From: Halobacteriales archaeon QH_7_66_36
GTDB lineage: Archaea > Halobacteriota > Halobacteria > Halobacteriales > Haloarculaceae
NCBI GenBank assembly: GCA_003021175.1
Contig: PXQV01000008.1
Coordinates: 1 to 58,690 of the forward strand
Direction: 5' to 3'
Length of the DNA stretch: 58,690 bases
This document shows, piece after piece, positions 9,140-17,114 of this stretch. Position numbers and translations under genes: made by a program. Within the stretch, counting starts at the first letter, position 1. Every line of letters starts with the position of its first letter. The notes below the pieces were generated by a model. The model was given only the letters and a program-made list of their open reading frames with translations, was not told the DNA's origin and did no database searches.

Positions 9140-12132
9140 GTCAGGGACAAGCACCCAAACGGATCGGGTCGCTCAGCTTCGGGCTGATGGACCCCGAGGA
9201 GTACCGAGAGATGTCGGCCACGAAGGTCATCACGGCCGACACGTACGACGACGACGGCTTCCCCATCGACATGGGGCTGATGGACCCCCGTCTGGGCGTC
9301 ATCGACCCCGGTCTCGAATGCAAGACCTGTGGCAAACACTCCGGGTCGTGTAACGGCCACTTCGGCCACATCGAGCTGGCCGCGCCGGTCATCCACGTCG
9401 GCTTCGCGAAGCTCATCCGCCGGCTCCTCCGGGGGACGTGTCGCGAGTGCTCGCGGCTCTGTCTCACAGAAGACGAGAGGGCGGAGTTCCGCGACCGACT
9501 CGACACCACCCGCAGTCTGGGCGAGGATCTGGGCGACGTGACGAAGGCCGCCATCCGGAAGGCGCGCAAGGCGTCGCAGTGTCCGTACTGCGGCGAGAAG
9601 CAGTACGACATCCAGCACGAGAAGCCGACGACCTACTACGAGGTGCAGGAGGTGCTCGCCGCGGAGTACTCCGAGACCATCGCGGCGGCGATGGAGGGCC
9701 GGCCGGTCGAGGGCGAGGACGAGGACGTCGAGCGCGAGCCGATGGCCCCGACCGACCTCGCCGAGGAGACGGGCATCGACCTCTCCCGGATCAACGAGAT
9801 CCTCTCCGGCGAGTTCCGGCCGACGAAGTCTGACCGACAGGCGCTTGAGGCGGCGCTCGACGTGGATCTCACCGAGGAGGACATGAACAAGCTGATGCCC
9901 TCGGACATCCGCGACTGGTTCGAGGACATTCCCGACGAGGACATCGAGGTGCTGGGCGTCGACTCCCAGAAGTCCCGCCCCGAGTGGATCATCCTCACCG
10001 TCCTGCCGGTGCCGCCGGTGACGGCCCGCCCCTCAATCACGCTGGACAACGGCCAGCGCTCCGAGGACGACCTCACCCACAAGCTGGTGGACATCATCCG
10101 CATCAATCAGCGGTTCATGGAAAATCGTGAGGCGGGCGCGCCCCAGCTCATCATCGAGGACCTGTGGGAACTGCTCCAGTACCACGTCACTACGTTCATG
10201 GACAACGAGATCAGCGGGACGCCGCCGGCGCGCCACCGCTCCGGCCGCCCGCTGAAGACGCTCAGCCAGCGGCTGAAGGGGAAGGAGGGCCGCTTCCGCG
10301 GCTCGTTGTCCGGCAAGCGCGTCAACTTCTCCGCGCGGACGGTCATCAGTCCGGACCCCACCCTCTCGCTGAACGAGGTGGGCGTCCCCAACCGGGTCGC
10401 CAGCGAGATGACCCAGACGATGAACGTCAACGAGCGGAATCTCGACGACGCGCGCCGCTACGTCGCCAACGGGCCCGAACACCATCCGGGCGCGAACTAC
10501 GTGCGTCGGCCGGACGGCCGCCGGCTGAAGGTGACGGAGAAGAACTGCGAGGAGCTCGCGGAGAAGGTCGACCCCGGTTGGGAGGTGTCCCGACACCTCA
10601 TCGACGGGGACGTGGTCATCTTCAACCGGCAGCCGTCGCTCCACCGGATGTCCATCATGGCTCACGAGGTGGTCGTGATGCCGTACAAGACGTTCCGGCT
10701 GAACACCGTCGTCTGTCCGCCGTACAACGCCGACTTCGACGGCGACGAGATGAACATGCACGCGCTCCAGAACGAGGAGGCGCGCGCCGAGGCGCGCGTC
10801 CTCATGCGCGTGCAAGAGCAGATACTCAGCCCGCGGTTCGGCGAGAACATCATCGGGGCGATTCAGGACCACATCTCCGGGATGTATCTGCTCACCCACG
10901 AGAACCCGCGGTTCAACGAGACGCAGGCGCTCGACCTGCTGCGTGCCACCTCCATCGACGAACTGCCGCCGGCTGACGGAGAGGTGTCGGAGACACCTCA
11001 AGCAGACGGCGAAGCCGTCGACGGCGAGGAGGACGGCACGAAGTACTGGACCGGGCGCACCGTCTTCTCCGAGCTGCTCCCGGACGACCTCGATCTGGAG
11101 TTCGAGGGGACCGTCGGCGAGCCGGTCGTCATCGAGGACGGCCAGCTCGTCGAGGGGACCATCGCCGAGGACGAGGTCGGCGAGTTCGGCGGCGAGATCG
11201 TCGACACCATCACGAAGGTGTACGGCAACACCCGCTCGCGGGAGTTCATCAACGAGGTGGCGACGCTGGCGATGCGCTCCATCATGCACTTCGGCTTCTC
11301 CGTCGGCATCGACGACGAGTCCGTCGACGACGCGGCCGAGGTCCAGATTCAGGAGGCCATCGACAGCGCCTACGAGCGGGTCCAGAAGCTGATCAAGACG
11401 TACGAGACCGGCGAACTCGAATCGCTCCCGGGGCGGACGGTCGACGAGACGCTGGAGATGAAGATCATGCAGACGCTCGGTCGTGCGCGCGACTCGGCGG
11501 GCGACATCGCCGACGACAACCTCACCGAGGACAACCCGGCGGTCGTGATGGCCCGCTCCGGCGCGCGTGGGTCGATGCTGAACCTCACGCAGATGTCCGC
11601 CTGCGTCGGCCAGCAGGCCGTCCGCGGCGAGCGCATCAACCGCGGCTACGAGGACCGCACCCTCAGCCACTACAAGAAGGACGACCTCTCGGCTGACGCC
11701 CACGGCTTCGTCGAGTCCTCCTACCGGCAGGGGCTCGACCCGCAGGAGTTCTTCTTCCACGCGATGGGCGGCCGCGAGGGGCTGGTCGACACGGCCGTCC
11801 GGACCTCGAAGTCCGGCTATCTCCAGCGCCGGCTCATCAACGCGCTCTCGGAGCTGGAGACGCAGTACGACGGCACCGTGCGCGACACCTCCGACACCAT
11901 CGTCCAGTTCGAGTTCGGCGAGGACGGCACCTCGACGACGCAGGTGGCCCACGACGCCGAGAGCCCGATGGACGTCGAAGAGATCGCCGACCGCGTGATC
12001 GACGCCGAGTTCGCCGACGAGGCGGAACGCGAGTCGTTCCTGCGCGGCGAGACGGGCGAGACGAACCTCTCGGAGCACGGCGACACGTGGCGCAGCCCCG
12101 GGTCCGCCCCGGAGGTGGAGTCGGATGACTGA
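9136..12132 (+). CDS. rpoA1: DNA-directed RNA polymerase subunit A' (N-terminal part of the largest subunit)
   Basis: The 998-residue subunit starts with the clamp-core zinc site ([17 protein letters not shown] from C62). The catalytic magnesium loop is [12 protein letters not shown] (531-542), followed by the bridge-helix region near [20 protein letters not shown]. These residues show the active polymerase centre. A GGAGG Shine-Dalgarno lies 9 nt before the ATG. A 30-residue acidic insertion near residue 620 ([19 protein letters not shown]) is typical halophile padding. Its 3' end overlaps rpoA'' by 8 nt. Confidence 0.97.
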
Positions 12133-14806
12133 CGCCAGCGACGACGTGCGCGCGCTGGTCGAGGACACCGACCTTCCCAAGCGCCTCCGCGAGAAGGTGT
12201 ACGAGGCCGTCGACGACCGAGGGGCGACGCTCGACGAGGTCGAAGACATCGTCTCGGCGGTCGAGTCGCGGTATCGGGACACCCGCGTCGACCCGCTGGA
12301 CCCCGTCGGCACCGTCTCCGCGCAGTCCATCGGTGAGCCGGGGACGCAGATGTCGATCCCGGCCGACGAGCGTGTTCTCGTCCGGCGGGACGGCGAGACG
12401 GACGCCGTCGAGATCGGCCCGTTCGTCGACTCGCTAATGGAATCCGCCGAGACACGCGCGTTCGACGACCACGAGATCGCGCTCGCGCCCGACGGTATCG
12501 AGGTGCCGAGTCTCGGTGCTGACGAACGGGTTCGCTGGAAGGCGCTCGAAGAAGTCAGCCGCCACGAGACCCCCGACGAGCTGCTCCGGTTCGAGCTCGA
12601 ATCCGGGCGGACGATTCGGGCGACGAAGGCCCATTCGTTCGTGACGCGGCGGGACAACGACGTAGTCCCCGTCGCGGGCGAGGAACTGAGCGAGGGGGAC
12701 TGGCTCCCGGTCGTCGGTGACCTGCCCGTTGAGTCGGGTAGCGACACCGTTGACCTGCGGGAGCACCTCCCCGCGAGCGATTACTGGTACACGTCCGCGC
12801 TGACCGACGGTGGCGCGGCGACGTTCCCGGCTGGCGACGAGCAGGTCGAGAACAAGCGGGCCGCGCTCGAAGCGGGACGAATCGACGGCGGGGCCGTCTA
12901 TCCGAGGGGTGGAACCGTCGGGCTTCCCGAGCGGCTCCCGCTCGACGAGGAGACTGGATTCTTCATCGGCGCGTGGCTCGCCGAGGGCAACGCGACGGAC
13001 GGCTACGTCTCCGTTTCGAACACCGACCCGGCGTTCCAAGAGCGGGTTCGCTCGTTCGCCGAGCGATTCGATCTCTCCATGAACGAGTACGCCAGCGACG
13101 GCGAATACGGCGACAGTTACGATATTCGGGTGAACGGGACGGTACTCGCCGACTTCCTTCGGACAGCATGTCTCGACGACGGCGAGAAGGTCGTCCCCGG
13201 ATTCGCGTTCGGGGCCGACGAGTCGTTCGTGGCCGGGCTGCTCGCCGGCTACTTCGGCGGTGACGGAAACATCGGCCGGAGCAGTATTCGGGCGAGTTCG
13301 ACGAGCGAGCGGCTGACCGCCGGGGTCGCGCTCCTGCTCGCACGAGTCAACGTCTACGCCACCCTCGGCGAGACGGACGGCTCCCGAACGCTCCGTATCC
13401 CCGCGAAGTTCGTCCCCCGGTTCGCCGCGCGGGTCGGGATGGTCGGCGAGCGTGGCGACGCACTCGCGGCACTCGCCGACGATGTCGACGCTGACGGCCC
13501 GGACGCGACCGATCAGATTCCGAACTTCGGCGACGCGCTCCGGAATGTCGCGTCGGCGGCAGAGATTCCGACACGGCAGGTCAACAGCGCGTCGAAGCGT
13601 CAGCGTATCGGCCGCAACCGACTCGCCGGACTCGTCGCGGACGCCGAAGCTGCCGGCGTCGACTCGTCGGCGCTCGACGCGCTCCGGACTGCGGTCGAGG
13701 GCGATGTCGTCTGGGACCGAATCGACTCGGTCGAGACGGTCAGCAGCGACTACGAGTACGTGTACGACTTCTCCGTCGCGGGGCTGGAGACGTTCACCAC
13801 CGCGGAGGGCGTCGTGACGCACAACACGATGAACACCTTCCACTACGCGGGCGTCGCAGAGATCGACGTGACGCAGGGGCTGCCGCGGCTCATCGAACTC
13901 GTGGACGCGCGCAAGACGCCGGACACGCCGATGATGACCGTCTATCTCGACGAGGAGCACGCGAGCGACCGCGAGCGCGCCCACGAGGTCGTCTGGAACA
14001 TCGAGTCGACGCAGATACTCGCGTTGGGCGACGTGTCGACGAACGTCGCCGACATGCTCGTCCGTATCGACCTCAACGAGGAGACGCTACGCGAGCGGTG
14101 GCCCACCTACGACGACGTCGACGAGATCGTCGCGGAGATCGCCGACACCATCGAGTCGAATCTGGGCGTCGCCACCAGCCGACCGGAGCCGACGGTCGTC
14201 GAGTTCGGTCCCGACCAGCCGTCGTATCGCGAACTGCTCCAGCTCGTCGAGGAGCTGCGCGACATCGTGTTCAAGGGGATCGAGGACATCACGCGCGTCG
14301 TCATCCGGAAGGAGGAGCTCGATGATGGGACCGAGGAGTTCGTCCTCTACACAGAGGGGTCGGCGTTCGGCGACGTGTTGGAGATCGACGGTGTCGACCC
14401 GTCGCGGACCACGTGTAACAACATCCACGAGATCCACCGCGAACTCGGCATCGAGGCGGCCCGCGAGGCGCTGATCAACGAGACGAAGAACACGCTCGAA
14501 GAGCAGGGGCTGGACAACGTGAACGTCCGCCACCTGATGCTCGTCGCGGACATCATGACGAACCGCGGCGAGATCGAATCCATCGGTCGGCACGGCATCT
14601 CCGGCAGCAAGGAGTCCGTGCTGGCCCGCGCCGCCTTCGAGGTGACGGTCAACCACCTGCTCGACGCCGCCATCCACGGCGAGGTGGACGCCCTCGACGG
14701 GGTCACGGAGAACGTCATCGTCGGTAAGCCGATCAAGCTCGGCACGGGCGACGTGGATCTCCGGATGGGGTCGCGCCGCGCGTCACCCGAGAGCGCCGAC
14801 GACTAG
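12125..14806 (+). CDS. rpoA2: DNA-directed RNA polymerase subunit A'' containing an intein
   Basis: The precursor has 893 residues; the usual A'' has about 400. Residues 1-76 (to [11 protein letters not shown]) and 568-893 (from [15 protein letters not shown]) are A'' sequence and join to a normal 402-residue subunit. It forms the jaw and the C-terminal part of the trigger-loop module. Residues 77-567 are an intein that must splice out for a working polymerase. The gene overlaps rpoA' by 8 nt and ends 41 nt before nusA. Confidence 0.96.
12353..13825 (+). mobile_element. RpoA'' intein with LAGLIDADG homing endonuclease
   Basis: The intein occupies residues 77-567 (491 aa) and sits exactly between GEPGTQM and [10 protein letters not shown], in the trigger-loop region. 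Residue 1 is Ser and the C-terminus reads VVTHN, followed by extein Thr, so splicing should use Ser1, the terminal Asn and Thr+1. Block B is seen in [11 protein letters not shown]. Two LAGLIDADG-like helices, [12 protein letters not shown] and [12 protein letters not shown], both keep an acidic residue, so the endonuclease may be active. Inteins at this site are known in haloarchaeal rpoA''. Confidence 0.93.
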
Positions 14807-14847
14807 CGTAGACCACTGTTTTTACCCCGCCGACTCGAAGCGGACGT

Positions 14848-15666
14848 GTGATACGGCTCTCCGACGAGGACCGCCAGCTCATCGGCTTCTTCGAGGAAGA
14901 ATCCGGGGCGACGGTGCGCGACTGCGTGCGCGACGACGACCGTGTGGTGTTCGTCGTCGCGGCCGGCGAGATGGCCGACGCCATCGGCCCGCAAGGCCGG
15001 ACCGTCTCGCGGATCGAAGACCGGGTCAACAGGCGGGTCGAACTCGTCGAGGACGCGGACGACCCGGCGACGTTCGTGGCGAACGCGCTGCGGCCCGCGC
15101 CGGTGTACGACGTGTCCGTCGGCGAGCGCGAGGACGACGACGAGACGGAGATCGTCGCGTACGCGGAGGTGAACGCCGCCGATTTCGGGGCGGCCATCGG
15201 CCGCGACGGGCGCAACATCGAGATGGCCGAGCGACTGACCGCCCGCCACTTCGACGTGGACGCCGTCGAACTCGTTCCCGAGCCGGAGTCGGTGGTGGAG
15301 ACGGTCGCCGAGGAGACGGGGACGGAGCCGGTCGACGCGCTGTTCGACGCCGACGACGAGCGGGTGGTCGTGCTCGCGCCTGCGGGGTCACGCGAGGAGA
15401 TAGCCACAGAAGGCGACGCGCTCCGGACGGCGTTGGGGTGGCCGGTGGTCGTCGTCGGGTACGCGAGCGACGCGCCCGACCTGCTGGCGAACGCGCTCGC
15501 GCCCGCAGACGTGACGAACGTGACCGTCAGCGACAGCGGCGTCGCGTACGTCGAAGTGCCCGAGGACGAGCGGGGGCTCGCCATCGGGACCGGAGGGAAG
15601 CGCATCCGGCTGGCGCGGCTCCTCGGCGCGGCGTACTACGGGCTCGACGACGTGGAGTTGGCGTGA
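14848..15666 (+). CDS. nusA: NusA-like transcription factor with internal tandem duplication
   Basis: Archaeal NusA is normally about 140-150 residues with two KH domains and binds RNA in transcription elongation/termination. This one has 272. Residues 29-142 contain the two usual KH motifs (GPQG 47-50, GRDG 118-121). Residues 169-271 repeat the same order at lower similarity: DDERVVVLAPAG against DDDRVVFVVAAG, LLANALAPADVTNVTV against FVANALRPAPVYDVSV, and AIGTGGKRIRLA against AIGRDGRNIEMA. In the repeat the first GxxG is lost (TEGD) and the second kept (GTGG). GTG start, with TATA-like GTTTTTA at 14818-14826. Confidence 0.9.
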   Translation: MIRLSDEDRQLIGFFEEESGATVRDCVRDDDRVVFVVAAGEMADAIGPQGRTVSRIEDRVNRRVELVEDADDPATFVANALRPAPVYDVSVGEREDDDETEIVAYAEVNAADFGAAIGRDGRNIEMAERLTARHFDVDAVELVPEPESVVETVAEETGTEPVDALFDADDERVVVLAPAGSREEIATEGDALRTALGWPVVVVGYASDAPDLLANALAPADVTNVTVSDSGVAYVEVPEDERGLAIGTGGKRIRLARLLGAAYYGLDDVELA

Positions 15667-16257: not shown

Positions 16258-16674
16258 ATGACCGCGGCCGACGCCGACACCCCGGTTGATACCGAAGCAG
16301 TTCGGTCCATCCTGTGTGACCACCCCGTCGAGTTCGCCGTGCTGTTCGGGTCGGCCGCCCGAGGCGAATCCCACGCGGAGAGCGATGTCGATATCGGTGT
16401 CGTCTTCGAGTCGTTTCGAACCGTTCGGGCGTACCGAACGGCGCGAGAAGAACTGACCGCAGACCTGATGTCTGCGATGGGGCGAAACGAAATCGATCTC
16501 GTCGACCTCGACGATGCGGAGCCGAGCGTTGCTCGCCACGCGCTCAGCGATGCGGTCGTTCTACTCGGTGACCCCGCTCGACTGTCGGACCTCCGGGACA
16601 GATACCGAGTGGACGGAAATGAATCGGAATTTCAAACACGGCTCGACCGTGCGTTGGAGCGTGCAGGGTCCTGA
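16258..16674 (+). CDS. mntA: MNT-type nucleotidyltransferase antitoxin (MntA-like)
   Basis: The 138-residue protein has the minimal nucleotidyltransferase signature: G31-S32 in LFGSAARGE and the acidic pair in ESDVDIGVVF (D43, D45). In MNT/HEPN systems this enzyme transfers AMP to a tyrosine of the HEPN toxin and neutralises it. The stop TGA overlaps the ATG of the HEPN gene by one base, the usual tight antitoxin-first order. A TATA-like CTTTTGTG lies at 16228-16235. The ATG at 16258 gives the standard family N-terminus; the open frame upstream is repeat sequence. Confidence 0.88.
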   Translation: MTAADADTPVDTEAVRSILCDHPVEFAVLFGSAARGESHAESDVDIGVVFESFRTVRAYRTAREELTADLMSAMGRNEIDLVDLDDAEPSVARHALSDAVVLLGDPARLSDLRDRYRVDGNESEFQTRLDRALERAGS

Positions 16675-17114
16675 TGGACGACCGGCGCACCGAGATCATC
16701 GTCGCGAACGTGGAGTTCGCAGCCGACAGCATCGCGCGACTCCGTGAGAAACAGGGCGTTTCGTTCGCGGAGTACCGCGACGATCCCGACACCCGAGACA
16801 TCGTCGAACGGCAGTTCCAGAAGCTCATCGAAGCCTGTCTCGATATCGCTCGAACGGTCCTTCGAGGACACGAGGGATCGGTTCCGGAGACGAACGCCGA
16901 TTGTATGCGTGAACTCGGGAACCGTGGAATCCTGAGCGAGTCGCTCGCGGCCGAAATGGCGTCCGCAGCCGGGTTCAGGAACGTACTCACCCACCAGTAC
17001 GGCCGTCAGTTGAATCACCAGACGGTTCACGACGCGCTCCACGACCTCGGCCGGTTCGAGGGGTTCCTCCGTTCGATCCGCGATCATCTCGATGCGGTGG
17101 GTGCGCTCGATTGA
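16674..17114 (+). CDS. hepT: HEPN-domain ribonuclease toxin (HepT-like, DUF86)
   Basis: The 146-residue all-helical protein carries the HEPN catalytic motif R-x4-H-x-Y: R102, H107, Y109 in FRNVLTHQYG. HepT toxins cleave RNA, and the tyrosine is the target of AMP transfer by the partner. All motif residues are intact. It is translationally coupled to mntA and followed 63 nt later by rpsL, which has its own promoter. The pair looks like an accessory insert in the ribosomal/transcription cluster. Confidence 0.88.
   Translation: MDDRRTEIIVANVEFAADSIARLREKQGVSFAEYRDDPDTRDIVERQFQKLIEACLDIARTVLRGHEGSVPETNADCMRELGNRGILSESLAAEMASAAGFRNVLTHQYGRQLNHQTVHDALHDLGRFEGFLRSIRDHLDAVGALD

Follow-up and report, generated by a model that had tools for sequence, protein, structure and literature searches.

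A tandemly duplicated NusA with four KH domains in the haloarchaeal genera Halosegnis and Halorarius

Introduction

Archaeal NusA is widespread and its function is unclear (PMC8116511). It is an RNA-binding protein, and one proposal pairs it with the S1 domain of Rpo7, the two together reconstituting the parts of bacterial NusA (PMC7289017, PMC8116511); according to one review it is encoded by all archaea (PMC7289017). The nusA gene described here lies on a 58,690 nucleotide stretch of DNA from Halobacteriales archaeon QH_7_66_36 (contig PXQV01000008.1, positions 1 to 58,690; hereafter the window) and is unusually long. Is the additional sequence a second NusA unit, how did it arise and what does it imply for RNA binding? 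A sequence-only reading of this locus had proposed a tandem internal duplication followed by divergence and partial loss of RNA-binding motifs, and had connected it with an adjoining accessory insert and with a longer RNA-binding surface.

Results

The long nusA gene encodes two NusA units

The gene and its parts, in window coordinates, are as follows; the limits of KH1, KH2 and KH4 were taken from the secondary structure of an AlphaFold model.

14848-15666, + strand: nusA, long form, 272 aa, GTG start, stop included (open reading frame and TIGR01952)
14848-15273, + strand: N half, residues 1-142 (TIGR01952 E 2.3e-46)
N half, + strand: KH1, residues 6-68
14986-14997, + strand: KH1 GxxG (G47-P-Q-G50), present
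N half, + strand: KH2, residues 73-144
15199-15210, + strand: KH2 GxxG (G118-R-D-G121), present
15229-15231, + strand: E128, KH2 helix position 12
15274-15663, + strand: C half, residues 143-272, second NusA unit (TIGR01952 E 1.3e-17; model against 2CXC, TM 0.90)
15283-15459, + strand: KH3, residues 146-204, KH fold retained and GxxG gone (model and alignment)
15472-15660, + strand: KH4, residues 209-271
15586-15597, + strand: KH4 GxxG (G247-T-G-G250), present
15616-15618, + strand: R257, KH4 helix position 12

Compared by BLASTP, the two halves matched at 45 of 138 positions (33%, E 2e-15), and their Smith-Waterman score of 134 was equalled by none of 1000 shuffles (mean 34, SD 6). Against TIGR01952, the archaeal NusA model, the whole protein scored 218 bits, the N half 158 and the C half alone 64.4, just under the curated cut-off of 74.35 bits; the whole 272-aa protein remains a NusA by virtue of its N half. 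Archaeal NusA is otherwise a single unit of ∼140 residues, and as there are two units in these 272 residues the protein is called here a variant of archaeal NusA. Both KH domains of the N half carry a GxxG loop; of the two in the C half only KH4 does, KH3 having none, as had been read from the sequence. The ranges originally aligned, residues 29-142 and 169-271, fall within the aligned halves, and the proposed tandem duplication is borne out by the match of the halves to each other and to TIGR01952 and by the four KH units modelled.

The duplicated 272-aa NusA is real, and the observation is confirmed. An origin by chance or by a frameshift artefact was excluded, the long frame being kept in two genera, including the complete chromosomes of Halorarius litoreus and H. 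halobius. An informal reading of the alignment found no conserved start codon from which the C half might be separately translated. A genome-wide comparison found a single locus matching the long NusA protein in the genome of the window. The gene context of NusA is kept, between rpoA2 and rps12, with an MNT/HEPN pair intervening before rps12 in the window.

Several features of the surrounding DNA were also recorded. A TTTTTA run is visible by eye at 14819-14824, 24-29 bases upstream of the nusA GTG start, which is the spacing expected for the TATA box of a leaderless transcript, and such a run is visible in L005 too; in Halorarius rpoA2 and nusA directly abut, again by eye. The window rpoA2 (12125-14806) contains an intein that includes a LAGLIDADG endonuclease domain, at roughly residues 79-564; H. 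rubeus and the two Halorarius species have an rpoA2 free of this intein, which has a full-length match in MAG QH_7_65_31.

Each half is predicted to adopt the NusA fold

AlphaFold, supplied with long forms and short NusAs, returned a model with a mean pLDDT of 95.3 and a pTM of 0.86, in which the order helix, two strands, two helices, strand recurs four times. The top solved match in Foldseek was archaeal NusA (2CXC), and each half contains two KH domains with the NusA fold. When modelled from C-half sequences only, the C half superimposed on 2CXC with a TM of 0.90 and an rmsd of 1.7; residues 150-272 are thus KH-like. As the linker joining the halves is only ∼1 residue, and given the pTM, the four KH domains probably form one stiff unit in the model.

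The long form is restricted to two genera

The length of nusA was surveyed in 59 relatives and then in 146 genomes of the family. Among the 146, the long form was found only in Halosegnis, the genus of the window (six species), and in Halorarius (two species); named records place the carriers in these genera, and the two Halorarius chromosomes are complete. Other haloarchaea have a short NusA: elsewhere in the family the ordinary gene encodes ∼140 aa, and those that were read run to ∼135-142 aa when counted from the aligned start. Open frames of ∼263 aa recorded elsewhere are stop-to-stop frames; in the one that was read, L014, nusA itself spans ∼139 aa. A search of 392 genomes of the order, a sample without Halorarius, yielded no tandem copy outside the window's genus among the matches listed; outside that genus these reached at most 107 bits against a C-half profile on which complete C halves score ∼235 bits. 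No other adjacent NusA pair was present in 120 sampled genomes of the phylum, in which second copies occupied separate loci.

Seven genomes that were 94-99% complete, L073-L077 (G096, G009, G095, G094, G097), L070 (G203) and L071 (G179), lacked nusA at its usual place between rpoA2 and rps12 and gave no match to the NusA family above the cut-off anywhere, in contrast to the review's statement on all archaea (PMC7289017).

Two carrier sequences are irregular. The gene in G003 is incomplete as it runs off the contig end, and 21 residues of KH1 are missing in frame in G001 (L005/L053, MAG QS_9_67_17). In this MAG there is also a gap within the intein region of rpoA2, and the frame of the HEPN gene is broken; all three defects are probably MAG errors.

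The accessory insert that had been noted beside nusA is present: a nucleotidyltransferase/HepT-like pair of the MNT-HEPN toxin-antitoxin type (16258-17114) is inserted between nusA and rps12. Among the carriers compared it was seen only in the window's species and the close MAG QS_9_67_17. A link between the insert and the duplication was ruled out, since H. rubeus and the two Halorarius species carry a long nusA but no such insert.

Motif decay differs between the two halves

KH domains were scored with profiles of short NusAs, using held-out short sequences as the yardstick. KH1 of the N half scored close to the yardstick (median 102 bits, yardstick 113) and KH2 was lowered (90 against 129 bits), while KH3 was barely recognisable (11 bits) and KH4 fell in between (71 bits). 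GxxG has gone from KH3 in all seven readable copies. The helix that follows the KH2 loop has Arg or Lys at position 12 in 46 of 46 parsed short NusAs and Arg in two further sequences read by eye, giving Lys/Arg in 48 of 48; in the N halves of the long form this position is Glu or Thr (6/6), and the equivalent KH4 position in the C halves is Arg (7/7). The net charge of the loop and helix start was +2 to +5 for KH4 of the C halves and 0 for KH2 of the two N halves compared; for KH2 of short forms it lay between 0 and +2, apart from a single +4.

Purifying selection acts on both halves, dN/dS being below 1 in every pair compared (N half 0.12-0.44, C half 0.11-0.38). In most pairs constraint was weakest on KH3, and in several it was strongest on KH4. 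The course of events first proposed, a duplication followed by divergence and by decay of some of the RNA-binding motifs, is supported by the sequence, by the fold and by the comparison of genomes.

The decay of the two halves looks complementary at the level of sequence, with KH3 losing GxxG and KH2 the basic residue. This is the pattern expected when two copies divide one task, and suggests something other than a simple extra copy; as the carriers form a single lineage, and so one evolutionary case, the complementary losses are suggestive and fall short of proof. The suggestion of a longer RNA-binding surface is too simple: since KH2 of the N half has also lost a conserved basic residue, the count of working RNA sites may be no higher than before the duplication.

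The same data bear on two other interpretations. The C half could be a protein-binding or dimer-mimicking module, its KH fold kept for contacts with the ribosome, with RNA polymerase or with some other factor, and all RNA binding left to the N half. The absence of KH3 GxxG from every copy would agree with such a role, as would the faster overall evolution of the C half (mean pairwise identity 0.69, against 0.73 for the N half, and a long branch); however, KH4 retains its GxxG together with the Arg of the helix, exceeds the KH2 domains compared in basic charge and ranks with the most constrained regions of close pairs, which makes this role unlikely. A second possibility is near-neutral drift, in which a tolerated duplication left NusA function unchanged and the C half is a passenger kept only by the needs of folding. 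Constraint on NusA may indeed be weak, because nusA is apparently missing in several haloarchaeal genomes, and KH3 is decaying. Yet the open frame of the C half has lasted across two genera at the dN/dS values given above, with a KH4 motif that is conserved and basic, and drift is the less likely of the two.

The duplication probably arose once from the resident gene

In a tree of RpoA2 all eight carriers formed one clade (support 97/82), and in the protein tree the N halves formed one clade and the C halves another. A single event in a common ancestor, before Halosegnis and Halorarius split, is therefore probable; joint transfer of the operon may also be compatible with the RpoA2 tree, RpoA2 being encoded by the neighbouring gene. 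With the C-half profile, two haloarchaeal NusAs scored 85-106 bits, single or first copies from other classes of the phylum 40-71 and second copies from those classes 40-57. The C half is thus nearest to haloarchaeal NusA, which makes the resident gene a likelier source than an outside one. In the best tree the C half sat on a long branch and did not pair directly with the N half, an absence attributable to that branch; a tree with N and C halves in one clade gave a p-AU of 0.27, so that pairing is compatible with the data.

A fusion with a foreign or paralogous second NusA is the least probable origin of the C half: it resembles other haloarchaeal NusAs (32-42% identity) about as closely as it resembles the N half of its own chain (33%), and the halves are unpaired on the best tree, but the haloarchaeal scores exceed those of both kinds of copy from other classes, the NusA2 structures of Sulfolobales fit poorly (TM 0.58-0.63), and the tree is explicable by the long branch. 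That archaeal nusA underwent an in-frame internal tandem duplication in an ancestor shared by Halosegnis and Halorarius is well supported.

Discussion

Each half of the long protein shares its KH pair and fold with archaeal NusA (TIGR01952; Aeropyrum pernix, PDB 2CXC), and the gene position between rpoA2 and rps12 is common to both. The long protein differs in having two units per chain, a KH3 without GxxG and a KH2 without the conserved helix Lys/Arg. The KH1-KH2 region of Mycobacterium tuberculosis NusA, solved with RNA (PDB 2ASB/2ATW), is likewise a tandem KH pair with GxxG loops and binds single-stranded RNA; unlike bacterial NusA, the protein described here has four KH units rather than two and has no N-terminal RNAP-binding or S1 domain. 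Archaeal NusA2 (Saccharolobus solfataricus, PDB 9F9U; second NusA copies elsewhere in the phylum) also gives its organism two KH pairs of the NusA type, but it is encoded by a gene of its own away from the first and is a much poorer match to the C half, for which it is not the closest match, haloarchaeal NusA scoring higher.

The reading that we favour, with moderate confidence, is a four-KH NusA in which RNA would be held mainly via KH1 and KH4. An internal in-frame tandem duplication placed four KH domains in one chain, after which KH3 dropped its GxxG loop while keeping its fold, and KH2 lost its conserved basic helix residue; KH1 and KH4 retained theirs. The product would be a single elongated NusA touching the nascent RNA, as it leaves RNA polymerase, mainly by KH1 and KH4, with KH2 and KH3 as a scaffold that fixes their spacing. 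It would do the usual job of NusA beside the Rpo4/7 stalk with an RNA footprint that is wider or bipartite. Judged from its motif, KH2 of the N half retains GxxG and hence could still bind RNA; in the M. tuberculosis sequence the KH2 Arg lies one residue beyond position 12, so position 12 is not necessarily an RNA contact. More tentatively, and with some doubt, the protein might act as a rigid bipartite RNA reader, its outer KH1 and KH4 domains held at a fixed spacing, that alters which transcripts pause or terminate in both genera.

The literature searched, with most subscription papers outside its reach, contained no account of an archaeal NusA that is duplicated. The long NusA is an apparently undescribed form of a known transcription factor, and the complementary decay of its halves points to specific residues worth testing. 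One family holds three states: most genera have a short NusA, Halosegnis and Halorarius have the doubled form, and several species of another genus apparently lack NusA altogether. Comparison of the three provides a natural test of NusA function.
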